Assembly: GCF_012516315.1 (NCBI RefSeq)
Contig: NZ_CP051185.1
Location: forward strand, 4,903,363-4,967,362
From: Limnospira fusiformis SAG 85.79
GTDB lineage: Bacteria > Cyanobacteriota > Cyanobacteriia > Cyanobacteriales > Microcoleaceae
Length of the DNA stretch: 64,000 nucleotides
Direction: 5' to 3'
Position numbers and translations under genes: made by a program. Positions 9,573 through 51,800 of this stretch are shown piece by piece. The notes below the pieces were generated by a model that did not search any database, was not told the DNA's origin, and saw only the letters and a program-made list of their open reading frames with translations. Numbering within the stretch: the first letter of the stretch is position 1; each line of letters starts with the position of its first letter.

Positions 9573-9710
9573 TGACCATCATCTATGTACTCAAAAAGTA
9601 TTTGGGAGTTCCAAATATTGTTAACAGATGCAATCTCCGAGCCATATCCTCCCAATACCCCTACCATAGCAGAGTCATAAAAATCTAAAACTCTCACACT
9701 TAAATTATTC

Positions 9711-11111
9711 ATGAAAATCAAGGTTCAAAATTTAGGTGTTATCAAACAAGCCGAACTCGAGTTAGGAGATCTCACGATTATTTGTGGGGAAAATAACTCT
9801 GGCAAAACCTATGTTACCTATGCTTTGTTTGGATTTTTAGCTACATGGAGAGATGGCTTTGAAGTGGAAATTGCCAATGATATTATTGACCAGATTTTAA
9901 ATCAAGGATTGGCGACGATCAACCTCCTAACTGATATTGATTCCCCAGAAAAAATCCTATCCCAAGCCTCCGAAGCCTACGCAGACAGTCTGGGGGAAAT
10001 CTTTGGGACAAACCGAGCCAGGTTTGCTCAGACAACCTTTGAAGTTTTTTTAGATTTCAATAGAGATTTTTTTGATGATGTCTATGAAACCAATATAGGA
10101 GCCAGAGGCTCTGATCAGCAAATCTTTTCACTAATCAAACCTGTAAATAGCCCAGAATTGACGGTTACACTCCTAGCCACAAAGGAAAATCTGAATTTTC
10201 CTCGACAAATCATCAGGAAAATTATTAGTGATTCAATTAAAAATATCCTGTTTTCTCGATTTTTTCCGCGTCCTTTTATCGCCAGTGCGGAAAGAACAGG
10301 TGCGGCTATTTTTCGGAAAGAACTCAATTTTGCCCGTAATCGTCTCCTAGATGAACTGAGCCAAGTTGAAGGGGAAAAAGATAGGTTTCAACTGCTGCTT
10401 TCTAAGGGGTATGGAGATTATGCGTTGCCGATTCATAAAAATGTTGAGTTTCTGCGTAATTTAGAGGGAATATCTAAACGCAGCAGTAATTTAAGCGAAA
10501 TCAATCCTGGTATTTTAGACGATTTTGATGATATTATTGGCGGTCGTTATGTGGTCACCAAAAATGATGAACTCTATTATATTCCTACGGGCAATAAAAA
10601 AGCTCAGTTAACGATGGATCAAAGTTCTAGTGCGGTTCGTTCGTTACTGGATATTGGCTTTTATTTAAAACATATTGCCAAAATCGGCGAATTACTAATT
10701 ATTGATGAACCTGAACTAAATTTGCACCCGGAAAACCAACGTCGAATCGCTCGTTTAATTGCTCGGTTGATCAACAGTGGCATCAAAGTATTGATTACGA
10801 CCCACAGTGATTATATTGTCAAGGAATTGAACACCCTAATCATGCTCAATTCCGATAAACCCCACATTCAACAAATTGCCGAAAAAGCAGGCTATAAACA
10901 AGATGAAATTCTCGCGGCTAGTCGTGTTAGAGTTTATATGGCGGAAGAAGCCCTTATCCAATTACCCGGTAAATCGAGGCGGAGTCGCTGTCAAACGTTA
11001 ACCGTAGCGACAATTACACCGGATTTCGGTATGGAAATTTCCAGCTTTGACACTGCCATTGAAGCCATGAATAAAATTCAAGAAGCGATCGTCTGGGGAG
11101 AAGGGTTTTAG
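9711..11111 (+). CDS. AAA family ATPase (ABC/SMC-like, predicted ATP-binding protein)
   Basis: This 466-residue protein has an ABC/SMC-type ATPase fold. Walker A is GENNSGKT at 26-33, right after a short N-terminal strand as in OLD/RecF-like ATPases. Walker B is LLIIDEPELNLHP with the acidic pair at about D332-E333, and a TTHSDYIVKELN H-loop follows. The DQSSSAVRSLLDIG segment before Walker B takes the place of the ABC signature. The middle, about 60-290, is variable and unassigned. Such ATPases usually work with a nuclease or toxin-like partner encoded next to them. Here the stop codon overlaps a GTG that opens a short, broken frame (11111-11288), suggesting a lost partner. Function is not known; a defence or toxin-antitoxin role is only an inference. 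Confidence 0.75.
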   Translation: MKIKVQNLGVIKQAELELGDLTIICGENNSGKTYVTYALFGFLATWRDGFEVEIANDIIDQILNQGLATINLLTDIDSPEKILSQASEAYADSLGEIFGTNRARFAQTTFEVFLDFNRDFFDDVYETNIGARGSDQQIFSLIKPVNSPELTVTLLATKENLNFPRQIIRKIISDSIKNILFSRFFPRPFIASAERTGAAIFRKELNFARNRLLDELSQVEGEKDRFQLLLSKGYGDYALPIHKNVEFLRNLEGISKRSSNLSEINPGILDDFDDIIGGRYVVTKNDELYYIPTGNKKAQLTMDQSSSAVRSLLDIGFYLKHIAKIGELLIIDEPELNLHPENQRRIARLIARLINSGIKVLITTHSDYIVKELNTLIMLNSDKPHIQQIAEKAGYKQDEILAASRVRVYMAEEALIQLPGKSRRSRCQTLTVATITPDFGMEISSFDTAIEAMNKIQEAIVWGEGF

Positions 11112-11288
11112 TGTGGGAGGTAGATTATCGAATTCTGTCAGAGTTAATTGATGAATCAGCACAAATTAAAGCGATCGCTCTATCCTATAACAATAGACGA
11201 TGACAATATAAAAGAAATACCGAAGCACTATTTATCGGTTAAGTATCAGCAAGAAATTTATTTCCGAGTGTTCTTAGAAAAAGCATAA
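11111..11288 (+). pseudogene. Remnant of a gene co-transcribed with the AAA ATPase
   Basis: A GTG at 11111 overlaps the ATPase stop by one base and reads VWEVDYRILSELIDESAQ before stopping at 11201-11203. In another frame the downstream DNA continues sensibly as IDDDNIKEIPKHYLSV and EIYFRVFLEKA, ending at 11286-11288. One frameshift near 11185 would join the two parts. The 1-bp stop/start overlap is typical of translationally coupled partners. I do not recognise the family. Confidence 0.45.
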
Positions 11289-11322
11289 TTTGAGATGCGA
11301 TCGCCTCAATACCAGTAACCTC

Positions 11323-11492
11323 AAATACTTGACGACAGAATGGAGGTTGTGCTATACTCAGAGAAATCGCTTCCAGGGACTTATTGTAACTACACACCCA
11401 AAAAAACCGTAAACCCTATATATATCGTGAAATCTTAATATTTTGTGGCTAAAATTTAAAATAGCGATGCACGAGTGTTTGAGGATTTGGCT
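11323..11492 (+). repeat. Duplicated promoter/leader block, copy 1
   Basis: About 170 bp, from AAATACTTGACGACAG to GAGGATTTGGCT, recurs at 15291-15461 before the paralogous downstream gene. The best conserved parts are the promoter hexamers, CCCTATATATATCGTGAAAT, TTAATATTTT and GCGATGCACGAG. The block was either copied with the gene or kept for shared regulation. The transcript would have a long leader of roughly 200 nt. Confidence 0.8.
11329..11358 (+). promoter_or_regulatory. Sigma70-type promoter of the first AAA-WD40 gene
   Basis: TTGACG at 11329-11334 and TATACT at 11353-11358 are separated by 18 bp. The same hexamers with the same spacing recur at 15297-15326 in front of the paralogue although the spacer bases differ, which supports function. 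Confidence 0.7.
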
Positions 11493-11570
11493 ATTGACAA
11501 AATCGACATTTTATGCAATGAGCATTTGATAGGCGAATAATTAACTATAATCCATCATCGATGTAATGTC

Positions 11571-14500
11571 ATGAGACTTGGGTACGAATCAATTTATCAA
11601 GTCGGTGGTAGCCTTCATAGGGACTCACCGACCTATGTAGAGAGGGCGGCGGATAGGGAACTCTATCAAGCCTTGAAATCCGGGGAATTTTGCTATGTTC
11701 TCAATAGTCGCCAAATGGGTAAGTCGTCCCTGTTGGTGCGGACTTCCCATAGACTACAACAGGAGTCGCTGAAGTGTATCAGCTTAGATATGACTTGTAT
11801 TGGTAGTGAAAATGTGACACCTTTACAGTGGTATAAAGGGATTTTAACATTTTTATGGACAGGTTTTAAGCTAACCAGTAAATTTCCGCTTAAAAGTTGG
11901 TGGAATGAACGAGAAGACCTATCCTTATTGCAGCGTTTAAGTCAATTTATTGAAGAGTTATTAAAACATTTACCCGACCAAAATCTGTTTATATTTGTGG
12001 ATGAAATAGACAGTATTTTAAGTTTACCATTTCCGGTGGATGATTTTTTTGCTTTCATCCGTTATTGTTATAATGAAAGGGCTGTTAATCCCGAATATAA
12101 TCGGATTACTTTTGCGATTTTTGGAGTGGCTACACCTTCGGATTTAATTAAAGATAAAAATCGCACGCCGTTTAATATTGGTAAAGCTATACAGTTATCA
12201 GGATTTACGTTAAAGGAAGCTGAACCCTTAATGACAGGTTTAATGATGCCGGGTAAAAATTCTCGTCGTCTGCTGAAGAGTATCTTAAATTGGACGAGAG
12301 GACAGCCTTTTTTAACTCAGAAAATTTGTAATATTTTATATATGGAGATATTGAAAGGAGGTAAACATAAGTTATGGAGGTATAAAACAGAGGAAAAGAT
12401 AATCTCGAAAATTGTTCAAGATTACATTATTGATAATTGGGAATATCAAGATGAACCGGAACATTTAAGGACTATCTGTAATCGATTATTGCACAATCAA
12501 AAAAATCTGGCGAATTTGCTAAGTCTTTATCAGCAGATTTTAATAGGTATAATAATTGAGGCTGACGGTAGTTCAGAACAAACGGAATTAATCATGTCTG
12601 GCTTGGTGGTTAAGTACCACAATTGTTTGAGGTTGAAAAACAAGATTTATAAAAGCATTTTTAATCAGGGTTGGGTGGACAAAAAGTTAGGTAATTTACG
12701 ACCCTATTCCCAAACTCTTGAAGCCTGGGTGCTTTCTGGTAAAACTGATGAGTCTCGACTGCTGCGAGGACAGGCTTTAGAAGATGCTCACAAATGGATG
12801 GTGGGTAAGGCTTTAAGTCCGGTAGATTATCAGTTTTTAAATGCTTCGGCTGAATTGGAACAACTCCAAGTTAGACAGCAACTAGAAATTGAGCGATCGC
12901 AAGCTATTGCTAACCAATTACAAGAACAGCAAAAGAGATTATTGCAGGAACGAAAAAATGCTAAAAAACAAAAAGTTTTCCTGGGTATTTTCGCTGTTGG
13001 CTTTGTGATAAATTCCTTGTTAGTATTTCAGACATTTAATTTGTATAGGAAGGCTTCAATCAATGAAAAACAAGCTAGAATTAACGAAATTGTGGCTATT
13101 ATCAATTCTGCCAACACTTTATTCAGCCAAAATTATCACCTGGATGCTTTATTGTCGGCTTTAGCAGCACACCGAAAAATTGAAACTATCCAATCAGCTA
13201 ATCCCGAAATTATTGAGAAAGTTAAAGACACGGTTAGCCGCGCATTTTTCCGCGCTGATGAGTTTAATCGTATTGTAGCCCATCAAAATATGATTTGGCG
13301 AGTTACGTTCTCTCCTGACGGTCAATATATCGCTACTAGCAGTAATGATAGAACTATTAGACTCTGGGATATAAGCGGTAATTTATTACGGGTTTTTGAG
13401 GGTCATGCAGGGGACATTTTTGATGTGGCTTTTTCGCCAGATGGTCAATTTTTAGCCTCAGCTAGTTTAGACAAAACGGCTAAAGTCTGGACTCTTGATG
13501 GTAATTTAGTTACTACCCTAAATCTCCATGAAAATGGTGTCAGAGCGATCGCTTTTTCTCCAGATGGTCAAACCATAGGAACAGCCAGTCAAGACAAAAC
13601 AGCACAACTGTGGCGACGGGGTGACCAGGGATGGACTGATGCTTATCTTTACCTGACTTTAACAGGTCATGATGATGCTGTAGAGGCGATCGCTTTTTCT
13701 CCAGATGGTCAAAATATCGCCACCAGCAGCAAAGACCACACCGTGAAACTATGGGGAATAGATGGCAGTCTAGTTAATACCTTTAGGGGACACCAAAACC
13801 CCGTCTGGGATGTGGTATTCTCCCCTGATGGGAAAACTATCGTTTCCGGTAGCAATGACGGTACAGCCAAAGTGTGGGGACTTGATGGCAGTCTGATTAC
13901 TACTTTACCCTCCCAGGAAGGTTGGGTTTGGTCTGTGGCTATTAGTCCTCCCGATAGCATTATCCGCCGTTTAGGTATCGCTTTTGCTACCGCTGATTTA
14001 GCTAATAATATTAAGCTGTGGGATATAGATGGTAATTTGTTATATACCCTAGAAGGTCATGAACAACAGGTCTGGAATGTTAGCTTTAGTCCTGATGGTA
14101 AAACTCTGGCTTCGGTAAGCAATGATAACAGTCTTCGACTCTGGAGTTTTGACCACCCTAGCCTGACGATTTTGAGGGGACATAATCGAGGTATTTTAGA
14201 TGCGGTATTTTCTGAGGATGACAGTTTTGTGGTAACTGGTAGTGATGATAAAACTCTCAAAATTTGGCGACCTAATGGGGAGTTATTACAGACTATTCCT
14301 ACTAGCGATGGGGGAGTTTTGTCGGTCAGTTTTGATTATCACAATCAGATTTTAGCTACTGGTAGCTATGACAATATTGTTCAACTGTGGCAAATTTCAC
14401 CTGATGGAACCAACATAACTTTACTCAACACTTTAACTGAACATACTGGACCTGTTTGGTCGGTGGCTTTTAGTCCTAATGGTGAATTTCTGGTGAGTGG

Positions 14501-15155
14501 TGGTGGTGATGGCACTATCAAACTTTGGAATAAAGATGGAGTTTTGCAAAACAGTTGGTCTTCACAAGGACAGACTATCCGCACAGTTGCTATTAGCCGA
14601 GATAGTCAGTTAATTGCTTATGGTGGTAGTGGTGAAACGGTGCAAATTTGGGGAGTTGATGGTAGTCTTAAACGGGAACTAAGTCAATACCACACCGGAA
14701 CTATATTAGGCTTAGATTTTTCTCCTGATGGTCGCTTTTTGGCTTCGGTAGCTGAGGATGATATGGTGAAAATTTGGGATGTTAATAGCAATTTAATTAA
14801 CAGTTTTAAAACTTATCATAATGATATTGTATCTGATGTTAATTTTTCCCCAGATAGTAAAATACTGGCGACGGTGGGAACAGATGGAAGTGCGAAACTA
14901 TGGACTGTTAGCGGTGAAAAATTGGCGGTTTTTAATGGTCATCGCACCCGTCAAACTAGGGTTTTGTCGGTGAGTTTTAGCAATGATGGTAAAAAGTTAA
15001 TTTCTACTGATACTGATGGGGTGGCTATTCTATGGAATCTCGATAATTCTATTAATTATCAATCGGTGAAAAATTATGCTTGTGAATGGGTGCGCGATTA
15101 CTTACCAATTAATCCCGATACTCCAAATGGCGATCGCCAAATTTGCCAAAATTAA
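11571..15155 (+). CDS. AAA-like ATPase with transmembrane segment and 14-repeat WD40 domain (paralogue 1)
   Basis: This 1194-residue protein has three parts. The N-terminal AAA-like (AAA_35-type) ATPase starts [11 protein letters not shown], with Walker A around SRQMGKSSL (47-55) and Walker [12 protein letters not shown] near 140. After a charged coiled-coil stretch (about 430-465) there is one hydrophobic transmembrane helix near 468-488 ([18 protein letters not shown]). The C-terminal half has 14 WD40 repeats, mostly VAFSPDG...LW, enough for two seven-bladed propellers. A short cysteine-containing tail ([10 protein letters not shown]) closes it. The architecture suggests a membrane-anchored signalling or scaffolding NTPase. 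The next gene is a paralogue with the same layout and leader. Regulation is likely through the shared promoter block. The target is unknown. Confidence 0.85.
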
Positions 15156-15290
15156 ATAGATTCTTTGGGACTCTCACCCACAGCCTTTAAACACCCCCAA
15201 AAAATAACTTTTACTAATAACTTCATCAAGATAGTTTTGATTTTCCAACTCATGTTAAGATTTAATACAATTTAATTGATAACTCCTCTG

Positions 15291-15461
15291 AAATACTTGA
15301 CGACAGCATGGGGGTTTTGCTATACTCATATAAATTGCAATAAAGGCATTCTTGTGACTACACGCAAAAAAAAAGCTGGAAACCCTATATATATCGTGAA
15401 ATATTAATATTTTTTGGTGAAATTTTTAAATTGCGATGCACGAGTTTTTGAGGATTTGGCT
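15291..15461 (+). repeat. Duplicated promoter/leader block, copy 2
   Basis: This is the second copy of the block at 11323-11492, again ending GAGGATTTGGCT about 150 bp before the start codon. Conserved segments are in the same order and spacing. The remainder of the 15156-15615 gap shows no gene that I can support. Confidence 0.8.
15297..15326 (+). promoter_or_regulatory. Sigma70-type promoter of the second AAA-WD40 gene
   Basis: TTGACG (15297-15302), an 18-bp spacer and TATACT (15321-15326) repeat the arrangement found before the first paralogue. Confidence 0.7.
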
Positions 15462-15615
15462 AGGGCAAAAAATTAGCATCTTGACAAAATAGGCGTTTGG
15501 TGAATCGGATGTTTTCTTTACCAAAATTTAAGATAGAGCTGTTGATGATTTGAGCCATTGTAAGAGTAATTGTAAGAGTCAGATAATTATCATAATTGGC
15601 TATAGATTTTTAACT

Positions 15616-18600
15616 ATGATAACTGAATATCGGTCAATTTATCAAGTCGGGGGTAGTCTGCATACAGACTGTCCTAGCTATGTTAAGCGACAGGCAGACA
15701 CAGACTTATATGAAGCCTTAAAACGGGGAGAGTTTGCTTATGTTCTCAACTCTCGTCAGATGGGAAAATCGTCTCTGTTAGTGCAAACCCGCCACCGTTT
15801 ACAAGCAGAAGGAATACGTTGTGCGACCTTAGACATGACGGTTATTGGTAGTGAAGATGTCACCCCAATGCAGTGGTATAAGGGAATTTTTGTAGAACTT
15901 TGGCGCGGGTTTGGGTTATTAAAATCTATGCCATTTAAAATCTGGTGGCAAGAACAAGGCGAACTTTCATTGGTACAAAAATTAAATCAGTTTATAGTGG
16001 AAGTTTTACTGCCTACATTTAACCAGGATAAATTTTGCATTTTTGTTGATGAAATAGACACTATTTTAAGTTTGCCATTTCCGGTAGATGATTGGTTTGC
16101 CTTTATTCGATTTTGTTATAATCAACGGGCAACTGAACCAGCATATCAGCGGCTAAATTTTGCGATTTTTGGGGTAGCTAATCCCTCCGACTTAATTAGA
16201 GATCGCACCCGAACACCTTTTAATATTGGCACAGCGATCGCACTTTCGGGGTTTACCCTAGAGGAAGCGAAACCCCTACAACAGGGATTAAATGTTCCCG
16301 GTTTTAATGACCAAATTTTGCTGGAAGAAATTTTAAACTGGACGGGAGGACAGCCATTTTTAACTCAGAAGTTATGTTATCTGATTTATTCCCAACATTA
16401 TTACGGTGTAACTTCCCCAAATCTTGCTGATATATTATCGGAAAAACAGTTGATCAAAGACTTGGTAATTGACCAGATAATCACCAATTGGGAGAAACAG
16501 GATGAACCGGAACATTTACGAACCATTAGAAATAGAATAATTAGCAATTCTCAAATCTCGTCAAGATTATTAGGGATTTATCAGAAAATACTCCTAGAGA
16601 CAGAAATACCCTTTGATGGTAGTCGGGAAGAAACGGAGGTTTTGCTATCTGGATTAATTGAAAAATCCGGGAATATGTTAAAAGTAAAAAATCCGATTTA
16701 TGAGCATATTTTTAATTTAGAATGGACTCAATTACAGCTAAATTTACTACGTCCCTATTCCCAAAACTTTGAGGCTTGGATAGCTTCTCATCAAACTGAT
16801 GACTCTCGGCTTTTACGAGGTCAAGCGTTATTAGAAGCGCGGACTTGGGCGTTAGGTAAAAGTTTAAGTGATGGTGATTATAAATTTTTAGCAGCCTCGG
16901 AAAAATGCGATCGCGCCGCTATGCAACAGGCTTTAGAAGCGGAAAAATTAATCGCGGTAGAAGCGAGACTTTTAGAAGAATATAAAAACTCAAGACTACA
17001 GCGACGACTGTTAACGACGGTGGTTTTATCGTTATTCTTCTCCCTAGGATTAGCTGGTTTAGCTTACTCCCAATATCGTCGAGCGATCGCCAGCTACGAA
17101 ATCACCAAAGTCCGAGAAATTGAAGCCCTAATTTCCGCCACAGAGGGTCAGTTTTTATCAAACAATAACCTGAATGCTTTAGTTAATGCTGTGCGGGCAA
17201 AAATCAGGCTAAAGGATGTCCAAAACGTAGAAGATCATCTCCTAAAAAAAGTCAATGCCGTTCTGAGTCAATCTGTTTATGGGATGAATGAATATAATAG
17301 TTTTGGTCGTCACCAAGACCGAGTTTGGGCTTTAAATTGGACGGAAGATGGGGAACAGATAGGAATTATTTCCCGCGCCAATTATCCCCATACTGACGGA
17401 AGGGAGGACATCGACAAAAATAATCAAGTTTTAATTTTTAATCGACGGGGTAAACTACTTAATATTATCGATAACTTTACCTATGAATTACGAACCCTTT
17501 CTTTTTTCCCAGACGGCTATATAGCCACAGGAGACAGCAATGGGGAAGTCAGAATTTGGTCAAATCAAGGTAAGTTGGTGTTCACGTTTTCCGCCCATGA
17601 GGAAGAAATATTGGATCTGATAATTTGGGGTCAAGACACCATAGCCACTACCAGCACTAAGGGTTCTATAAAACTTTGGCGCAGGGATGGGACTTTACTC
17701 AATGAATTTGTGGGTCATACTAAATCGCTGACAAAGATAGCCTTTTCTCCAGACGGTAACCGCCTAGCTTCTGCGAGTAATGATGGCAGAGTAAAACTGT
17801 GGGAAATAGGAGGGGAGTTAGTAGCTAGTTTTGAACATTCTCAACAAGCTGTGGAGGCTTTAGCTTTTTCTCCTGATGGTCAGTATATAGCGGCGGGAGG
17901 TCAGGATAGACAACTGAAATTATGGTCTATTAATGAAAGGTCTGCCATTGTACTCGGAGAACATCAGAATAGTATTAGAACTGTGGCTTTTTCTCCTGAT
18001 GGTAATATAATTGCCTCTGGGAGTTGGGATAGAAGTATTCGTTTATGGAGTCCTGACGGTAGACACCTGCAAACTTTCGCTTCCCATACTGCGCCTATGA
18101 CCCAACTTTCCTTTAGTCCTGATGGTGAAACTCTGGCTTCTGCTGACTTCCATGGGGAGGTTAAACTCTGGAAAGTTAAGAATCGGTTTTTTACTGTGCT
18201 ATCAGGACATCAAGACAATGTGCGGGCGACAGTTTTCACTCCAGACCATCAGCAAGTTTTCTCTAGTAGTTGGGGTGGAGAGGTTTATCGGTGGGATATG
18301 CAGGGTAATTTACTGGGAAGCCTAGAAGGTCATGATCAGGGTGTAATTGGTCTGGCGGTTTCTCCTGATGGTGAAATTTTGGCGACGAGTAGCTGGGATG
18401 AAAGTATTCGCCTCTGGAATATGGAGGGAGAGTTATTAAAGGTTATTAATAATGCTCATTCTATGGGGGGAAATCAACTAGCTTTTTCGCCAAATGGTGA
18501 GGTTATAGCCTCGGTGGGAAATGATAATAAGGTGAAGTTGTGGAGTCGAGTGGGGGAGTTTCTACGGGAGTGGGAATATTCGGAATCCATTACGGGAATT

Positions 18601-19152
18601 GCCTTTAGTCCTGATGGTAAAATGGTGGTTACAGGTAGCGAGGATACGGAAGTCAGAGTTGTATATATAGACGGGTCTGGGACGCGGTTAATTGGTAATC
18701 ATCAGGGTAGTGTTTGGGGGGTGGCTTTTAGTCCCCAGGGTGATATGATTGCTTCTGCTAGTACAGATAACACGCTCAGATTATGGTTTTTAGATGGTAG
18801 AGAACCGATAGTTTTGCATCATCAGGGGACTGTTGATAAGGTGGCTTTTTCACCAGATGGTCAGATGATTGCTTCGGCTAGTTGGGATGGCACTATTCAA
18901 CTTTGGACTAATGAAGGGGTGAAAATAAGAACTTTGATCCGACATCAAGGGTCGGTGCGGACTGTGGCTTTTAGTAATGATGGAAAATGGATGATTTCTG
19001 GGGGAGATGATAATCAAGTCATTATCTGGAATTTGGCTGAGATTATGAATTTAGATGAGTTGAGTTATGCTTGTTATGTCATCCAAGATTACCTGGATTA
19101 TTACCCGGAATTAAAGGATGAGGAAAGAAATTTGTGCGATCGCATTAATTAA
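15616..19152 (+). CDS. AAA-like ATPase with transmembrane segment and 14-repeat WD40 domain (paralogue 2)
   Basis: This is a paralogue of the preceding gene with the same order of parts: AAA-like ATPase ([11 protein letters not shown]; Walker [10 protein letters not shown]; Walker B FVDEIDTIL), coiled coil, a hydrophobic helix near 478-498 (LLTTVVLSLFFSLGLAGLAY), 14 WD40 repeats and a tail with YACYVIQDYL. I place the start at ATG 15616, giving 1178 residues, because MITEYRSIYQVGG aligns with the start of the paralogue; an upstream in-frame TTG at 15550 adds 22 unmatched residues. The first WD40 blade carries a small insertion (NYPHTDGREDID). One blade (TEVRVVY) has lost the final W. The ATPase half is clearly more conserved than the propellers, so the two copies may bind different partners. 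The function is inferred to be signalling or scaffolding. Confidence 0.84.
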   Translation: MITEYRSIYQVGGSLHTDCPSYVKRQADTDLYEALKRGEFAYVLNSRQMGKSSLLVQTRHRLQAEGIRCATLDMTVIGSEDVTPMQWYKGIFVELWRGFGLLKSMPFKIWWQEQGELSLVQKLNQFIVEVLLPTFNQDKFCIFVDEIDTILSLPFPVDDWFAFIRFCYNQRATEPAYQRLNFAIFGVANPSDLIRDRTRTPFNIGTAIALSGFTLEEAKPLQQGLNVPGFNDQILLEEILNWTGGQPFLTQKLCYLIYSQHYYGVTSPNLADILSEKQLIKDLVIDQIITNWEKQDEPEHLRTIRNRIISNSQISSRLLGIYQKILLETEIPFDGSREETEVLLSGLIEKSGNMLKVKNPIYEHIFNLEWTQLQLNLLRPYSQNFEAWIASHQTDDSRLLRGQALLEARTWALGKSLSDGDYKFLAASEKCDRAAMQQALEAEKLIAVEARLLEEYKNSRLQRRLLTTVVLSLFFSLGLAGLAYSQYRRAIASYEITKVREIEALISATEGQFLSNNNLNALVNAVRAKIRLKDVQNVEDHLLKKVNAVLSQSVYGMNEYNSFGRHQDRVWALNWTEDGEQIGIISRANYPHTDGREDIDKNNQVLIFNRRGKLLNIIDNFTYELRTLSFFPDGYIATGDSNGEVRIWSNQGKLVFTFSAHEEEILDLIIWGQDTIATTSTKGSIKLWRRDGTLLNEFVGHTKSLTKIAFSPDGNRLASASNDGRVKLWEIGGELVASFEHSQQAVEALAFSPDGQYIAAGGQDRQLKLWSINERSAIVLGEHQNSIRTVAFSPDGNIIASGSWDRSIRLWSPDGRHLQTFASHTAPMTQLSFSPDGETLASADFHGEVKLWKVKNRFFTVLSGHQDNVRATVFTPDHQQVFSSSWGGEVYRWDMQGNLLGSLEGHDQGVIGLAVSPDGEILATSSWDESIRLWNMEGELLKVINNAHSMGGNQLAFSPNGEVIASVGNDNKVKLWSRVGEFLREWEYSESITGIAFSPDGKMVVTGSEDTEVRVVYIDGSGTRLIGNHQGSVWGVAFSPQGDMIASASTDNTLRLWFLDGREPIVLHHQGTVDKVAFSPDGQMIASASWDGTIQLWTNEGVKIRTLIRHQGSVRTVAFSNDGKWMISGGDDNQVIIWNLAEIMNLDELSYACYVIQDYLDYYPELKDEERNLCDRIN

Positions 19153-19186
19153 AGTTTATTAATTAAAGTTTGATGAAAGTTTAACC

Positions 19187-19207
19187 TAGCCCCTAAAATT
19201 GGGGCTA
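19187..19207. terminator. Bidirectional hairpin between convergent genes
   Basis: TAGCCCC (19187-19193) pairs with GGGGCTA (19201-19207) around an A/T loop. It lies in the 60-bp gap between the converging AAA-WD40 gene and the YrdC-family gene, the expected place for a shared terminator. Confidence 0.55.
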
Positions 19208-19212
19208 TTTAG

Positions 19213-19881
19213 CTATTCTTCTGGCAGATCCCAATCAGCGATCGCCTCCCATCCTTTTCCGCGCCGCACCAACACAGGATCATCAGCACTTAAATCAATA
19301 ATTGTGGAAACTTGATAATCCAAATCAGCGCCATCATCAACAATAATATCAACCAAATTCTCCAAAGCATCAAAAAGCTGAACCTTATCATACTCTTGGG
19401 GAATTTTTTTAATTAAGGCGGAGGGTTCATCTTCTTCTTTAATATGTGCAGAAGTGGAAATTACTGGGTTTCCCAGAGATTCCAAAATAGCTAAACACAC
19501 GGGATGATCAGGAACCCTAATTCCGGTAGTTTTGCGCTTAGGTGACATCACCAATTTCGGCACCAGTTTAGTGGCGGGAAGTACAAAAGTATAACTCCCC
19601 GGAATCAATCTTTTGATGGTGCGATAGGCGGCATCAGTAACTATGGCATAATCGGCAATATTAGATAAGGATGAACAGAGAAAGGTGAGAGGTTTATCAT
19701 TGGAAATCTGCTTAATTTGTCGCACCTTTTGCACGGCAGATTTAACGGTGAGGTCGCAACCGATCGCATAAACGGTATCGGTAGGGTAAAGCATGACTGC
19801 CCCACGCTTGAGGGCATCCTTAATTTGTTCAATGGTGCGTTTTTGGGGATTTTGGGGATGAATTTCGTACAGAGTAGCCAT
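19213..19881 (-). CDS. YrdC/YciO/Sua5-family protein (threonylcarbamoyl-AMP synthase-like)
   Basis: The 222 residues show the YrdC fold: GAVMLYPTDTVYAIGCD near 28-44, then KQISNDKPLTFLCSSLSN, PGSYTFVLPAT and GIRVPDHPVC, ending near PVISTSA. TsaC/Sua5 enzymes make threonylcarbamoyl-AMP for the t6A modification of ANN-decoding tRNAs. The YciO branch shares the fold, but its role is less certain. The DKPLTFLC pattern and the lack of a Sua5 C-terminal domain point to the YciO-like branch. The ATG at 19881 gives MATLYEIHPQNPQ. It converges on the AAA-WD40 gene and diverges from larC, with about 136 bp for both promoters. Confidence 0.85.
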   Translation of the reverse strand: MATLYEIHPQNPQKRTIEQIKDALKRGAVMLYPTDTVYAIGCDLTVKSAVQKVRQIKQISNDKPLTFLCSSLSNIADYAIVTDAAYRTIKRLIPGSYTFVLPATKLVPKLVMSPKRKTTGIRVPDHPVCLAILESLGNPVISTSAHIKEEDEPSALIKKIPQEYDKVQLFDALENLVDIIVDDGADLDYQVSTIIDLSADDPVLVRRGKGWEAIADWDLPEE

Positions 19882-20017
19882 ATAATAAAGTCCATGAACT
19901 AGAATAATGATCGAACCATTAAAAGTTTAAAGTCAGAATGACGATCCGATCATGCCCAATTTTTGAGTAAAATAACTTTAAACTCAAATCGATATCACTC
20001 AAACCAGACGGCGGAAA

Positions 20018-21259
20018 ATGATCAATATAGCCTACCTTCAATGTCCCACTGGAATAGCTGGGGATATGTGCCTCGCAGCGTTAGTTCATGCCGGGGTTCC
20101 CCTGGAGTATCTCACGACACAGCTAGAAAGGCTGGGAATGGCTGAAGAATATCGGCTATGGGCTGAAAAGGTAACTCGCCAGGGTCAACAAGCCACGAAG
20201 GTTCATGTAGACCTGACCAGCCACGATCATCACACTCGCCACCTACCAGACATTGAAGCCATTATCAAGGCGGCAAAACTTCCCCCAAGGGCAGCAAACA
20301 TGAGTTTAGCGGTATTCCGCAAGCTGGCGGAGGCGGAAGGGGCGGTTCATGGTATTGACCCGGAAAAAGTACATTTTCACGAAGTGGGGGCGACAGATGC
20401 GATCGTGGATATTGTCGGAACCTGTTTGGGGTTGGACTGGCTAAAAATCGATCGCCTCTATTGTTCTGCTTTTCCGGTAGGTGGTGGCACATTCCGGGCA
20501 GCCCATGGAATTTTACCAGTACCTGCCCCTGCTGTTCTGAAACTCTGGGAAATGCGTAGTGTTCCAGTTTATAGCAATGGCATTGAACGAGAATTAGTTA
20601 CCCCAACGGGGGCGGCGATCGCTGTAACTTTGGCTACAGAATTCGGACCGCCACCGCCGATGATTCTGAAACGGGTGGGACTGGGGGCGGGTTCGTCAAA
20701 TTTTCCCATCCCTAATATTCTCCGCCTCTGGTTAGGGGAAACTGAGGATACAGATAAACCCAAGGCGGAAAGTCATGGTTTGGCGGGGACTTTCCATAAT
20801 CATGATGAGGAAATGGTGGCAGTATTAGAAACTCAAATTGATGACCTTAGCCCCCAAGCGATCGCCTATGCTTCTCAGGCTTTATTATCGGCGGGGGCGG
20901 TGGATGTTTTTGTGCAACCTGTGACCATGAAAAAGTCTCGCCTCGGAATATTATTAACTGTGATTTGTCACCCGGAAGCTGTGGATACTTGCCGGAATAT
21001 TCTCTTTGCCGAAACTACTACTTTAGGGATTCGTCAAAGTTGGCAATGTCGCACTATTCTTGACCGCGAATTACAGACGGTTGACACTGAATATGGTTTA
21101 GTCAGAATTAAGGTGGCTTTTTCAGGCGATCGCGTTATTAATGTGCATCCTGAATATGAGGACTGCGCTACCCTCGCCCAACAGCATCAAATCCCCTGGC
21201 TAGATATTCATCAAAACGCCTTACAACATTGGCAGTTAATACAACAAAAATTATCATAA
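20018..21259 (+). CDS. larC: LarC-family nickel insertion protein (nickel pincer cofactor biosynthesis)
   Basis: LarC inserts nickel into pyridinium-3,5-bisthiocarboxylic acid mononucleotide, the cofactor of lactate racemase and related enzymes. The 413-residue sequence has family hallmarks: CPTGIAGDMCLAALV at the N-terminus, RHLPDIEAII, VHFHEVGATDAIVDIVG around 125-141, ELVTPTGAAIAV, and the C-terminal LarC2-like half from about 270 (ETQIDDLSPQAIAYA, AGAVDVFVQPVTMKK). In some bacteria the gene is split or needs a frameshift; here both halves are in one frame. No larA, larB or larE is present in the window, so its client enzyme is unknown. The start ATG at 20018 is well placed. Confidence 0.9.
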   Translation: MINIAYLQCPTGIAGDMCLAALVHAGVPLEYLTTQLERLGMAEEYRLWAEKVTRQGQQATKVHVDLTSHDHHTRHLPDIEAIIKAAKLPPRAANMSLAVFRKLAEAEGAVHGIDPEKVHFHEVGATDAIVDIVGTCLGLDWLKIDRLYCSAFPVGGGTFRAAHGILPVPAPAVLKLWEMRSVPVYSNGIERELVTPTGAAIAVTLATEFGPPPPMILKRVGLGAGSSNFPIPNILRLWLGETEDTDKPKAESHGLAGTFHNHDEEMVAVLETQIDDLSPQAIAYASQALLSAGAVDVFVQPVTMKKSRLGILLTVICHPEAVDTCRNILFAETTTLGIRQSWQCRTILDRELQTVDTEYGLVRIKVAFSGDRVINVHPEYEDCATLAQQHQIPWLDIHQNALQHWQLIQQKLS

Positions 21260-21260
21260 A

Positions 21261-21477
21261 AGAAACCCCAGAATCAAAGAAACCCGGTTTCTCTGTATAT
21301 AGGAAATCAACCCTAAAATCAAAGAAACCCGGTTTCTCTGAAGAAACCGGGTTTCTATGTGTATAGGAAAGAAACCGGGTCTCTATGTATATAGGAAAGA
21401 AACCCCAGAATCAAAGAAACCCGGTTTCTCTGAAGAAACCGGGTTTCTCTGTGTATAGGAAAGAAACCGGGTTTCTG
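21261..21477. repeat. Cluster of GAAACCCGG hairpin repeats between larC and uvrA
   Basis: The gap between two converging genes is packed with alternating copies of AGAAACCCGGTTTCTCT and GAAGAAACCGGGTTTCT, linked by short spacers such as GTGTATAGGAAAG and CCCAGAATCAA. Each copy is itself nearly palindromic, and neighbouring copies pair with each other, so both DNA strands can form strong hairpins. I count about seven units in about 217 bp. The position suits a bidirectional terminator built from an intergenic repeat family. It is not a CRISPR array, because the units are palindromic and the spacers are similar and short. Confidence 0.85.
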
Positions 21478-21491
21478 TAACTCGGTTTTTT

Positions 21492-24395
21492 TTAGGAAGT
21501 TGTTAACAGTTGTTTTAAATAAAATCCGGTGTAGGAATGGGGGTTATTAGCAATATCTTCGGGTGTTCCGGTGGCGACAATTTGACCACCGCGATCGCCT
21601 CCTTCTGGTCCCAAGTCCACCACCCAATCAGCACAACGAATCACATCTAAATTATGTTCAATGACCATAATAGAATTACCCTTATCAACCAACCTTTGTA
21701 AAACATTCAATAACTGATGAACATCATAAAAAGATAATCCCGTAGTTGGTTCATCAATTAAATACAGAGTTTTACCAGTAGCGCGTTTTGACAATTCGGA
21801 AGCCAATTTAACCCGTTGTGCTTCTCCCCCAGAAAGGGTAGGCGCAGGTTGTCCTAACTGAATATAACCCAAACCGACATCAACCAAAGTTTGCAGCCGA
21901 GTGGTAGCGCGGGGGATATTTTCAAAAACCTTTAAAGCCTCGTCAGCGGTCATATTCAAGACATCAGCGATAGAATAGCCCTTATATTTAACCTGGAGAG
22001 TTTCCCGGTTATATCGTGCGCCTTTACATACCTCACATTGCACATAAACATCAGGAAGAAAATTCATTTCAATCACATTTACCCCCTGTCCGCCGCAGGC
22101 TTCACAGCGTCCGCCTTTAACATTAAAAGAAAACTGTCCTGGCTTATATCCCCTAGCTTTCGCCTCAATGGTTTCTGCAAACAGTCCTCGGATAATATCA
22201 AATACTCCCGTATAGGTAGCGGGGTTAGATCGCGGAGTGCGTCCTATGGGAGATTGATCAATGACAATGACCTTATCCAAAGCATCTAATCCCTGAATTT
22301 TATCTAATTTTTTAGGAAAGGCAATTTTCCCGTAAAAATGATGTTGGAGGGCGGGATATAATAACTCATTAATTAAGGTAGATTTACCGGAACCTGATAC
22401 CCCAGTAATACAGACTAATTTACCGAGGGGTAATTCGACATCGATATTTTGCAGATTATTACAATGGGCGTTTTTGAGAAATAGCGATCGCCCATTTCCG
22501 GGACGGCGGCTGGGGGGAGTTTCAATTTTTTTGCGTCCAGAAAGATAAGCACCCGTGAGGGATTTTTGAGTAGTTAATAAAGTTTTTAAATCCCCTTGGG
22601 CGACAATTTCTCCGCCATTAACTCCCGCCCCAGGACCGATATCAACCAACCAATCAGCGGCGCGGATAGTTTCCTCGTCATGTTCAACTACAATCAAGGT
22701 ATTGCCTAAATCTCGCAACTTGATTAAGGTATTTAATAGTCTGCCATTATCCCGTTGATGTAAGCCAATACTAGGTTCATCTAAGACATATAAAACACCG
22801 GTTAAACCCGCGCCAATTTGAGTAGCCAATCGAATCCTTTGGGCTTCTCCGCCGGACAAGGTAGAAGCGGATCTAGCGAGGGTTAAATAATCCAAACCGA
22901 CATCTATCAAAAACTGTAATCTTGCCTTAATTTCGCGTAAGACTAAATCCCCGATTTGGGCTTGGCGATCGCTCAATTGTAGCTGATTAATTTTATCCAA
23001 ACAATCCCGAATGGAAACCTCGGTTAAATCTGCTATATTATACTGTCCCAAATAGACAGATAGCGCCTCTGGCTTCAATCGTTTACCGTGACAGACTTCG
23101 CAGGGTTGGTCAACCAAATAAGGGGCTAATTTCTGCTTTTGTGCTTCGGAACCTGTCTCCTCATATTGTCGGAGTAACATGGGAATTGCACCGAGATAGG
23201 GGCGGTAATAACTGCGATTTTCTCGGTAGCGGGAATCAGTTTCTATTAAAATGGGTTCATCACTCCCATAAAGAATAATATGCTGTTGTTCGGGTGTCAG
23301 TTTTTTCCAGGGGGTAGAAATCTCAAAATCGAAGGCTTGGGCGACACTATGAAGTAGGGATAAATAAAAGGAATTGTCCTTGTCTGACCAAGGGGCGATC
23401 GCATTATAAACAGGTTGTGAAGGGTCAGGAATAATCAATTCTGGGGAAAAAGTCCGCCAGTGTCCCAAACCATGACAAGCGGGACAAGCGCCATAGGGAG
23501 AATTAAAAGAAAATAGGCGGGGTGAAAGTTCTTCCATAACCGCCCCATGTTCAGGACAAGCAAAGTTTTCGGAAAATACCAATTGTTGCGGTTTGGGGAA
23601 TTGTTCTTCTGGTGATATACTGAGGTTATCCAAAATCTGAATAATAGCAACACCTTCCCCATGGCGTAAACAGGTAGTTAGGGAATCAACTAAACGTTCC
23701 TGTAACCCCGGTTTCACAATAAGTCTATCAATGACAATTTCAATATCATGGACATGATTTTTGTCTAAGTCTATATGGTCAGACAATTCGAGAATTTCCC
23801 CATCAATTTTGACCCGGACAAAACCTGAAGATGCTAAACTAGATAAGAGTTTGCGATGAGTGCCTTTTTTCCCTCGGACAACAGGCGCAAGAATAAGGAA
23901 TTTAGTGCCTTCAGGAAGTGCCATAACTTGATCGCACATTTGGTCAATAGTTTGGGGGGCAATATGGCGATCGCATATAGGACAATGAGGGGAACCCGCC
24001 CGACCAAATAATAAACGTAAATAATCATAAATTTCGGTAACTGTTCCCACGGTAGACCGAGGGTTATGGGAGGTGGATTTTTGGTCAATAGAAATAGCGG
24101 GACTCAACCCCTCGATCGCATCAACATCGGGCTTATCTAATTGTCCTAAAAATTGTCTCGCATAGGCACTAAGGGACTCGACATAACGCCGTTGTCCTTC
24201 AGCAAAAATGGTATCAAAAGCTAGGCTAGATTTCCCAGAACCTGAAACGCCAGTAAATACAATCAGGCGATCGCGGGGAAGTTCCAGATTGAGATTTTTC
24301 AGGTTATGCTGTCTCGCCCCGATAATTCTAATAGTGTTCAGACTAGCCGGGGATATGGTAGATTGGAGATCGGAAAATTTCGCAGGTTTAGCCAT
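21492..24395 (-). CDS. uvrA: UvrABC excinuclease subunit A
   Basis: UvrA is the damage-recognising ATPase of nucleotide excision repair and loads UvrB on lesions. The 967 residues have two ABC ATPase modules, each with Walker A GVSGSGKS and a signature ending LSGGEAQR(I/V). Three zinc-binding segments are visible: CPIC in GSPHCPICDRHI near 125, CPACHGLG near 295, and CEACGGQG with CEVCKGARYN in the second module. The Q-loops, VVEHDEETIRAADW and VIEHNLDVIRCADW, are typical. The ATG at 24395 precedes NTIRIIGARQHNLKN. It diverges from mtnW with only about 60 bp between start codons. No defect is seen. Confidence 0.97.
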   Translation of the reverse strand: MAKPAKFSDLQSTISPASLNTIRIIGARQHNLKNLNLELPRDRLIVFTGVSGSGKSSLAFDTIFAEGQRRYVESLSAYARQFLGQLDKPDVDAIEGLSPAISIDQKSTSHNPRSTVGTVTEIYDYLRLLFGRAGSPHCPICDRHIAPQTIDQMCDQVMALPEGTKFLILAPVVRGKKGTHRKLLSSLASSGFVRVKIDGEILELSDHIDLDKNHVHDIEIVIDRLIVKPGLQERLVDSLTTCLRHGEGVAIIQILDNLSISPEEQFPKPQQLVFSENFACPEHGAVMEELSPRLFSFNSPYGACPACHGLGHWRTFSPELIIPDPSQPVYNAIAPWSDKDNSFYLSLLHSVAQAFDFEISTPWKKLTPEQQHIILYGSDEPILIETDSRYRENRSYYRPYLGAIPMLLRQYEETGSEAQKQKLAPYLVDQPCEVCHGKRLKPEALSVYLGQYNIADLTEVSIRDCLDKINQLQLSDRQAQIGDLVLREIKARLQFLIDVGLDYLTLARSASTLSGGEAQRIRLATQIGAGLTGVLYVLDEPSIGLHQRDNGRLLNTLIKLRDLGNTLIVVEHDEETIRAADWLVDIGPGAGVNGGEIVAQGDLKTLLTTQKSLTGAYLSGRKKIETPPSRRPGNGRSLFLKNAHCNNLQNIDVELPLGKLVCITGVSGSGKSTLINELLYPALQHHFYGKIAFPKKLDKIQGLDALDKVIVIDQSPIGRTPRSNPATYTGVFDIIRGLFAETIEAKARGYKPGQFSFNVKGGRCEACGGQGVNVIEMNFLPDVYVQCEVCKGARYNRETLQVKYKGYSIADVLNMTADEALKVFENIPRATTRLQTLVDVGLGYIQLGQPAPTLSGGEAQRVKLASELSKRATGKTLYLIDEPTTGLSFYDVHQLLNVLQRLVDKGNSIMVIEHNLDVIRCADWVVDLGPEGGDRGGQIVATGTPEDIANNPHSYTGFYLKQLLTTS

Positions 24396-48818: not shown

Positions 48819-51800
48819 TTACACATAAACAAAAGAGGAACTATTTAAACTGATATTGTTCATTCCTTGCACAATACCAATAAGTTCATCAGTAACATCG
48901 CCTTTATAGAAGATAGCCAACCCATTAGGTAAGCCTTGGGGACTATCTGCGAGGCGATAATCTTCTGAGCTACCGTGAAGCTGAATCACATCATTATCAA
49001 AATCAGTAATCAGAGCATAATCTTGCCAACCGGGTTGGTCATCAATGCCATCATCATAGTACACAGAATTACTGTCACCTAAGACAAATGTATCAAAACC
49101 GCCATTTCCTGTCAATATATCTATTTGTCCGCGTCCAGGATTAGAGGAATTGGGGTCTGTTCCATTCAGCCAATCATCGCCTTGAGTACCAACTATGGTA
49201 TTAACGGGAACCCGATTTAAAGAGGTAGAACTATAGTAGCCAGGAAGTCCCACAGTTCGTCTGGTTTCCAGGTTCTGAATTTCCTCTACTCCGACAGCGG
49301 GTAAAGGCTCACCCTTGAAAGATCGGAAACTGGCTGCGACATAGCTTAGAGAGGATTCATTATTAATAAAAACGGGGATATCTCCAAATTCTCCATGGAG
49401 TATATAAGCGCCCAAAACTTCAGTTTTTCCACCATTAACAGTCTCAACTAATGTCCCCTCATCCTCAGTTTTGTAGCCAAGAATCCACAAATTACCGCCA
49501 TCATTCTTAATTCGGGGAGTGTGAATAGTCTCGGGATTAATTTGACGAGCCCAAACATTTTGATTAGTGAAAGACCAAGGACCGCCACTGATATCTTCAA
49601 TATATAAATCCCCAGTTCCTTGACTGGTGTTAAAATACTGATTAATAATCATATTGGACATAACCATAGTCCGATCGCTGTCTTGAACAAAGGTAATATT
49701 TGGAGCTTCCAAACGCTCCACAGAGACGACATCGGTAGTGCCATCAGCGACAGTAATTGTGCCACTACCTAGAATAGTAGCTTCTGTGCCAATAAAGCGC
49801 TGTAGATTATTTCTTAACTGAAGATTACCACCAATATTCCATACCCCATTAGGTAGGTAAACGGTACTAGCACCAGAATCGATCGCCGCCTGAATTGCCA
49901 GGGTATCATCAATGCCATCATTAGGCAAACCACCAAAAGCCAAAGGACTGACCCAATCAGACAAATCATCCCAAGGGACTACGGGAGTTGGCAAAACTTC
50001 CAGTTCAAAAGCCTGAGTGGGAGCATCAAATAGGGTATTAAAGCCACCACGCGCCATCCACTCAGCCACATAACCATCAGGTTGAGACAAGTTACCTCGT
50101 CCATTATCATCCTGTAGAATAGCCAGTTCATAACCAGAGGTATTGAGATTATTAACATACATCCCTTTTTGATTATGAATAGCAGGTTGAGTGGCGGCTG
50201 CACCGACCCCAGTTAAGTTAGCATCCATAATCGTAAAATCACTGGAACCATCAGGCATATTCCAAATGACGGGAACGGCATTAGTGCTTTCTAAGTCTCG
50301 CACAAACAGAGTTTGATTAAAATTCTGCCAACCATAAACATTTTGATTAACAAGTTTAACGCCTTCGAGTGTTTGAGTAGCGGTAGGATTCCAAGTCCGA
50401 ATACCGACATCAAATCCGACGACTTCGACATCCTTAACCAGTAGAGGTCCATTTTCATCGGTGGCGAGATCAAGACCGATCGCACCTTGTCCATCACGGG
50501 AAACTATGCGAACATTATTGAGAGTTCCCTGGTTGTTTGCTATAAAATTAATAGCGATCGCATCTGGGTTTCCCTGACCCACATCAACAGTCAAATCCCT
50601 GATACTATTGCGGAACCTTTGAGCGGGTGGATTTCCGGTATCAATAACCGCAGTATCAAAACCCAAATTATCTTGAAGTCTAATAATAGTGCCATCACGG
50701 CTTTCCCCCTGAAGAATATTGCGCTTTTCACTGCCAGGGTATGCAATCCTTCCACTAACATCATAAACCCCATTAGGGAAGTAAATAATCCGATTTTGAC
50801 CAGCATTCTCATTAATAGCTTGCTGAATAGCAGCAGTATCATCTATACCATCATTAGGAATCGCTCCATAATCCCTAACATCAACCACACCTGCATCAGC
50901 CGGGAAAACAATATTTTGAGTCGGTGTATTAGCGCTAAAATCAACGGTAAAACTACCCAAAGTGGCAGTTGGGATAAAATTACCTGCCATATCACTAACA
51001 GCATTGGGTTCCATGATGACGGTATAAGTTCCGCCGTCGGAGACATCCCAAACGCCGCCAGAAGGTGTAATTTGATAGGTAGCATTCCGGGTGTTTCCAT
51101 TTTCCTCACCGTAGACACGCACCAAACTAGCCAGTTGCTGAACCCCTAATGGTCCTATAACCCGGATATCGGCATCATCTAAAGTAGATTCTTGAATTTC
51201 CCAGTCATCAGAGTAGCTAACCGTGAAAGCATATCCGGTATCACTACCCAAGATAGGAGTCAAATCAGGAGCCAGTAAAGCCGCCGTTGGGGGTGACAGG
51301 TCTGGGGTATCTTCTGGGATAATAGGAGCGGCTGTATTGAAGAAGTAATCGACCTGGCTGGTAAAGGTAGGAGATGATGAACTTCCGGCATTTCCCGCAA
51401 ATAACCCCACCTGTTGCACTTGTAAGGCTTGGGTAAAACTCCCGGCGGTCGTCCAAGTTGAACCATCTGGGGAATAGTTGAGAGTCCAGACATCCCCAGT
51501 GCGGTTAACTTTCAGGTGTCGCGCTTGTCCGGGTTCTACCCCCATACGAATCATTGACCGGGAACCACCGTTACGGGTTGAAGCTGCAAATAAGGCTAAA
51601 CCTGAATTAGTCTTAAAGACATCAAACCTGACCCAGTTATTATCATCTTGCTCTACCAAAATCCCCTGTATTTGCTTATCTAAGGCGGGGTCGGCGGCAA
51701 ATTTGATTTCTAACTCAAAATCTTCATTTTGAGCCGGCTGCATGAGTCTGGCGGCGCTACGGTTGCTATTCCACATATCAGTACCACCAGGGACTGATAG

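Follow-up and report, generated by a model that had tools for sequence, protein, structure and literature searches.

The window analysed here, a 64,000-nucleotide stretch of the genome of Limnospira fusiformis SAG 85.79 (contig NZ_CP051185.1, positions 4,903,363 to 4,967,362 of the forward strand), carries two tandem genes for AAA-WD40 proteins, each of which is preceded on the same strand by a copy of an intergenic element built around a predicted promoter. A first-pass annotation had proposed that the two genes share a conserved promoter and leader, and it can be seen that matching blocks carrying the promoter and its accompanying motifs do lie upstream of both; they are 83% identical over ~175 nt (E=3.2e-45), a similarity that is not due to chance. 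The blocks had been correctly located, at 11323-11492 and 15291-15461, but were drawn too short, leaving out a terminal TTGACAAAA block at 11494 and 15481, and in copy 2 a further ~95 bp upstream, starting at 15201, are conserved but lay outside the block first described. In copy 1 the upstream blocks are absent and 18 bp are missing ahead of TTGACAAAA. In both copies the promoter reads TTGACG-18-TATACT with TG before the -10 box. The positions of these features are listed in Table 1.

The first-pass annotation had also pointed out that if the coding parts had diverged at synonymous sites only as far as the leaders, the similarity would be due to nothing more than recent duplication. We found that the AAA parts of the two proteins share 60% amino-acid identity and that the synonymous sites of the two coding sequences are saturated (proportion of synonymous differences, pS, 0.71 in the AAA part; synonymous divergence, dS, above 2), as against 83% identity between the element copies. 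Because of this saturation, the similarity of the blocks is not the trace of a recent duplication.

The two copies belong to a family of ~310-bp intergenic elements, of which the same genome has 27 near-full-length and two partial copies scoring above 100 bits with R1, a sequence-only model built from 19 copies. R1 gives 47 matches in this genome at E up to 0.01, and R2, a core model built from 30 diverse members, gives 51 at E up to 0.001, the E-values of the models being rough; with copy 2 as BLAST query, the genome yielded 40 matches at a cut-off of E 10, and for 16 of these E was no higher than 2e-6. The 5' part of the element is AT-rich and includes the blocks CATAAGTTTTGCTAAT and TGTTAAGAATTnnTACAATTTTATTG. 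The promoter, TTGACG-18-TGnTAnnnT, lies at mid-element, its -10 box retaining T, A and the final T, and 3' of it there are blocks near CCAAGG, TGTGTCTA, AACCCnnATT and TCG, then GCGATGCACGAGTTTT, a variable spacer of ~30 bp, which in copy 2 takes in 15451-15480, and finally TTGACAAAAnnnnnATTTTGTG. The promoter signature is retained in alignment A1 and largely in alignment A3, and the 26-base pattern of upstream block c has 21 matches in the genome, all 21 inside element copies (reversed-pattern control 0) and, with up to 3 mismatches, none elsewhere. We conclude, at the level of sequence, that the element has a predicted sigma70-type extended -10 promoter in its middle with conserved blocks on both sides. 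A second promoter at TTGACAAAA was rejected, as there is no conserved -10 signature 16-18 bp further on.

The R1 and R2 models also identified two tandem arrays of a diverged form of the element, one of 13.6 units of 324 bp (L176, 3581-7989) and one of about 7 units of 351 bp (L177, 3780-6328), in which the units are non-coding and match each other at 96-98% inside an array. The same two arrays are found in the related element-bearing genome G001, with 25 and 6 units matched, so that unit number differs between the two species. The array units differ in sequence but retain an extended -10 promoter (TTGACA-17-TAACAT and TTGACA-18-TATTTT, in both cases with TG ahead of the -10 box). At two dispersed loci, L162 (C1:5886772-5890603) and L163 (C1:3481490-3485167), the copies of this genome are interrupted by an additional few hundred bases, and those at the matching places in G001 are unsplit.

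Comparison of 22 orthologous pairs between this genome and G001 showed a divergence of 1.2% over the 2294 positions at which the paralogues are conserved (more than 1.6 bits of information), as against 17.2% over 1816 variable positions (below 0.8 bits; r=-0.67). These pairs come from 22 of the 30 loci of the genome; the degenerate loci L076-L079 and L081 and the 5'-truncated window copy L080 were excluded, and L053 and L058, the tandem partners of L052 and L057, were not counted again. We conclude from this comparison that the blocks are subject to purifying selection at present.

The length of the element is likewise preserved. In the core, 3 insertions or deletions (indels) were counted per 524 substitutions, as against 41 per 212 in the homologous 60-bp flanks (Fisher p 4e-18), the upstream flanks giving 25/75 (17 of the 22 pairs) and the downstream flanks 16/137 (20 of the 22). 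An initial count that included non-homologous flanks had given 34/103 and 25/157, and the repeat was restricted to homologous flanks. A single pair (L069) accounts for two of the three core indels, one an insertion and the other a deletion at a distance of two positions, and the variable spacer, which is 15-19% divergent, nevertheless keeps its length. Copies were counted as motif-intact if they had TTGACG, TAnnnT and, 150-260 bp further on, TTGACA. Of 88 such copies, which come from three families, 80 have 184-187 bp between TTGACG and the terminal TTGACA: 24/25 in Arthrospira copies of this genome and 32/34 in G001 (orthologues, and hence not independent), 14/16 in genera g3 and g4 of the same family, 4/5 in f8, 6/6 in f12 and 0/2 in more distant members. 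Window copy 1, at 165 bp, is the sole exception among the copies of this genome that were counted. We conclude that the spacing of the element is almost free of indels and, since its length is frozen across freely varying spacers, that DNA geometry is pointed to.

The account that we favour, to which we give somewhat less than an even chance, is that the element is an autonomous, dispersed promoter unit of ~310 bp that produces a short non-coding transcript and is held in fixed helical phase by proteins flanking the promoter. It is the promoter that points to transcription. Putative proteins would bind the upstream blocks, which are AT-rich and have the look of direct repeats, and putative proteins would also bind the downstream blocks, in particular the TTGACAAAA..ATTTTGTG inverted repeat; once bound they may form a phased nucleoprotein structure or a loop round the promoter, and this structure would control a short non-coding transcript that would start about 7 nt past the -10 box, in copy 2 near 15333. 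The frozen spacing predicts that insertions of half a helical turn break the element and that whole-turn insertions do not.

Several observations weigh against this account. Three of the 30 rows of alignment A3 (L109-L111) are without TTGACG, and a scan of the window region gave 22 promoter-like sites as against a shuffle mean of 14.6, so that a single promoter match is weak evidence and the weight must lie on conservation. Between the two species (26 pairs, with L076-L079 included), divergence is higher over the whole element (8.7%) than over its flanks (6.5%), which are largely coding, and as the element as a whole is no more conserved than its surroundings, constraint is confined to the blocks. 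More distant members have insertions that stretch the 184-bp distance to, for instance, 191 and 231 bp, and helical periodicity is not significant, the value at 10.5 bp being reached by 19% of shuffles and that at 10.75 by 12%. Finally, there is no conserved terminator: terminator-like sites were seen in 5 of 36 copies, as against 2 of 36 in the reversed control.

The foremost rival, which we nonetheless consider rather unlikely, is a plain multicopy small RNA (sRNA) family, in which an RNA of 150-180 nt is the product and the blocks CCAAGG, TGTGTCTA, AACCC and GCACGAGTTTT pair or bind protein, after the manner of NsiR1-type families. Each copy has its own predicted promoter, as such a family requires, the places are intergenic, the two tandem arrays would be in keeping with it, and conserved blocks lie downstream of the expected start. 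No reading frame is open across the family, which has stops in all six frames, and period 3 is absent from the conservation profile, on which grounds a small protein was rejected. The covariation test suggested by the first-pass annotation was carried out on 46 non-redundant rows. The best helix scored 1.18, above all 20 column shuffles (at most 0.94) but below a control that keeps relatedness (parallel pairing, 1.44), and no helix beat that control, so the test lends RNA structure no support; blocks that are invariant cannot vary, and such tests leave room for fully invariant pairing. RNAalifold gave six pairs, none of them with a double change. In the 36 non-redundant copies of standard spacing (of 91 matches) used for the folding and terminator analyses, 36-nt windows fold no better as local hairpins than dinucleotide shuffles do, and in window folding the mean z ranges from -0.64 to 0.56 at positions covered by at least 35 copies. 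Two structures were tried and rejected. Judged by eye, the folds made a convincing case for a variable hairpin or terminator at the 3' end, but there was no fold excess in the 36 copies and terminator-like sites were rare; a GGGGTT/AACCCC stem seemed, again by eye, compensatory in several distant members, but many copies have GGGCTT facing AACCC and the control was unbeaten. When seven loci were tested, an internal inverted repeat linking the promoter spacer to the AACCC block was plain in one, L057 (78% over 18 nt).

Rfam 15 offered no plausible match. With a cut-off of E 2, the region 9600-21500 of the window yielded 11 matches, none of which came near its gathering score; one (SNORA33, E 0.97, 15486-15607) overlaps the end of copy 2. 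Nine loci yielded none at E up to 0.5. An unstructured RNA would, moreover, have no need of the near absence of indels, which extends even to the variable spacer. The nearest described cyanobacterial parallel that we found for multicopy RNA genes with individual promoters is NsiR1 of Nostoc sp. PCC 7120, a ~60-nt sRNA with 12 tandem copies, a single array beside hetF and DIF1 promoters (PMC9045159). NsiR1 resembles the element in being multicopy and non-coding, with a promoter per copy and a tandem array of identical and divergent units; the element differs in being dispersed and ~310 bp long, in its motifs (no search for DIF1 was made) and in its frozen spacing. In open-licence PMC literature, five exact element strings led to one unrelated paper, via one string, and open-licence literature on Arthrospira repeats and multicopy sRNAs showed nothing on the element among the matches listed.

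An old, dispersed repeat of the MITE (miniature inverted-repeat transposable element) type, which carries a promoter and once spread within lineages, seems to us unlikely. In its favour are the ~30 copies in Arthrospira, the apparently separate amplification in G062 and the places of the copies, all set out below. With this genome counted throughout, R1 matches are found in 7 of 40 relatives and 23 of 291 genomes of the order, and R2 matches, with E limited to 1e-5, in 12 of the 388 class genomes; strict filters were applied in the order and class scans, which scored few candidates per genome, so that their counts are lower bounds. With laxer filters and E up to 0.001, R2 matched 14 of 39 chosen genomes, some of them weakly, and one promoter pattern gave named matches in Arthrospira sp. 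PCC 9108, two Planktothrix and two Oscillatoriales assemblies. Besides the ~30 copies in Arthrospira, 31 matches are present in the 3.8 Mb of genome G062, and as none of six compared loci there shares flanking genes with Arthrospira copies, amplification in G062 was apparently separate. For each of the 30 loci of the present genome, one flank or both match those of a G001 locus that bears the element, whereas between genera there are isolated flank similarities only, which indicates that copies are old and stable within the genus. Repeats of the ERIC, BIME and MITE types have tens of intergenic copies, often between convergent genes and at places common within a genus, and in all of these respects the element is like them. 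It differs in its fixed length, in having promoter motifs under selection and in lacking a terminal inverted repeat common to the seven tested loci, of which L098 alone has imperfect 20-nt end arms. The restriction of present purifying selection to motifs and the frozen length likewise speak against this reading. Plasmid and phage searches gave no match, and viral contigs had no exact match to one 20-base promoter pattern; spread by plasmids or phages was rejected on these results.

A site for chromosome upkeep (a DnaA-independent replication start or an anchoring site, with the promoter as primer or opener) is not supported, and we regard it as very unlikely. Fixed spacing with free spacers recalls oriC-type anatomy, and among the 40 relatives dnaA was missing or split in 4 of 7 R1-matched genomes as against 5 of 33 others (Fisher p 0.03), three of the four being of one genus; with R2 matches added, which were sought in part of the 40, the figures were 6/10 and 3/30 (p 0.003). 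However, this promising link fades in the 388 class genomes (2/12 against 18/376, p 0.12), the dnaA domain is present in both this genome and G001, and the search with laxer filters found, among 13 good genomes lacking dnaA, no match in 9, only weak ones (E above 1e-4) in 2 and clear ones in 2; a DnaA-independent origin was therefore rejected. The DnaA domain PF00308 was not found in G012, G017 and G022 (genus g3) and is split in two in G004, and among good cyanobacterial genomes it was not found in 13 of 334.

A leader or common operator of AAA-WD40 genes, as first proposed, is highly improbable as a general account: the two window copies end 50 and 108 bp before the ATG codons at 11571 and 15616, on the same strand, and could still serve their neighbours, but a genome-wide check for copies upstream of other AAA-WD40 genes found only 2 of 29 copies adjoining such genes, the other 27 lying beside dissimilar genes within 1.5 kb, and, by open reading frames (ORFs), a forward-strand gene follows only 10 of the 29 and a reverse-strand gene the other 19. 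What stands of the earlier proposal is the promoter, as read from the sequence, and selection in place of recent duplication. By the same ORF-based analysis, 13 of the 29 copies lie between convergent genes (tandem pairs share flanks), an arrangement seen at 6 of the window's 37 gene junctions, and the window pair is the only non-overlapping pair of copies with clearly related downstream genes when flanking frames within 1.5 kb are compared. Three copies share weakly similar neighbour proteins (24-32% identity). The neighbours of L064 and L077 are 97% identical to each other over 372 aa and are, to judge from their sequence, presumably IscB-like; a link to IscB and omega RNA was rejected, there being no Rfam match in the window region or the nine scanned loci, with L064 and L077 themselves outside that scan. 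We conclude that, to judge from these neighbourhoods, the element has no tie to neighbouring genes.

Table 1. Window positions of the two element copies, their blocks and the adjoining genes
Feature	Position	Strand	Basis
Full-length element, copy 2	15201..15507	+	R1 match positions 3-309, 196.7 bits, E 9e-58; C1:4918563-4918869
Element copy 1, 5' blocks missing, shortened before terminal block	11320..11520	+	R1 match positions 90-309, 106.5 bits; R2 match positions 2-216
Upstream block c (TGTTAAG..TTnnTACAATTT.ATTG), copy 2	15253..15278	+	Pattern match with 2 mismatches
Promoter P1, copy 2, TTGACG-18 bp-TATACT, TG before -10	15297..15326	+	Kept in alignment A1 and largely in A3; boxes at 15297-15302 and 15321-15326
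Promoter P1, copy 1, TTGACG-18 bp-TATACT	11329..11358	+	Promoter scan; boxes at 11329-11334 and 11353-11358
Block g, copy 2, CCCTATATATATCGTGAAAT (common family form AACCCnnATTnTnTCG)	15383..15402	+	Sequence, alignment
Block g, copy 1, CCCTATATATATCGTGAAAT	11414..11433	+	Sequence
Block i, copy 2, GCGATGCACGAGTTTTT	15433..15449	+	Little divergence between orthologues; GCGATGCACGAG at 15433-15444
Block i, copy 1, GCGATGCACGAG	11464..11475	+	Sequence
Terminal block j, copy 2, TTGACAAAA-n-TTTGGTG (common family form TTGACAAAAnnnnnATTTTGTG)	15481..15502	+	184 bp after TTGACG
Terminal block j, copy 1	11494..11515	+	165 bp after TTGACG
AAA_35-WD40 gene downstream of copy 1 (neighbour, not part of element)	11571..15155	+	Pfam PF14516, PF00400
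AAA-WD40 gene downstream of copy 2 (neighbour, not part of element)	15616..19152	+	Pfam WD40 and other propeller families (best 25 of 56)

Two further features of the window were noted. A 3156-aa ORF with many 285-nt repeats lies at 48819-58289 on the reverse strand; Pfam gives it an N-terminal DUF4347, bacterial Ig- and cadherin-like repeats, DUF1349 and a pectate-lyase-like domain, and its product is probably a giant surface or secreted protein. At 21276-21459 there are two 92-bp tandem copies with inverted repeats of the AAAGAAACCCGGTTTCT type, for which Rfam gave sub-threshold matches only, mostly to microRNA models.

A known regulator site comes close to one of the blocks. HLR1, which is bound by RpaB, is given as KTTACAWW-N2-KTTACAWW at -66 to -45 (PMC13421787, PMC9241938), and block c agrees with that form at 14 of 16 positions in the best copies of this genome. 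The first half of block c, however, is NTTAAG in 21 of 21 pattern matches, not KTTACA, and relative to the presumed start the block would lie near -80 to -62, not at -66 to -45. An RpaB/HLR1 site was rejected, as the first half-site deviates from the published consensus.

Beyond the autonomous promoter unit itself, a wider and more doubtful proposal is that these elements constitute a new class of geometry-locked nucleoprotein sites, with ~30 per chromosome and the promoter as a working part, which were amplified apparently independently in several cyanobacterial lineages and may serve the chromosome (through global regulation, titration of a regulator or organisation) and not the neighbouring gene. 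Selection on both the blocks and the length, together with the lack of any Rfam match, points to a global system; with the element at ~30 places in Arthrospira (spirulina) and 31 matches in a lineage where it was apparently amplified independently, this would be a global DNA-protein or RNA system in cyanobacteria.

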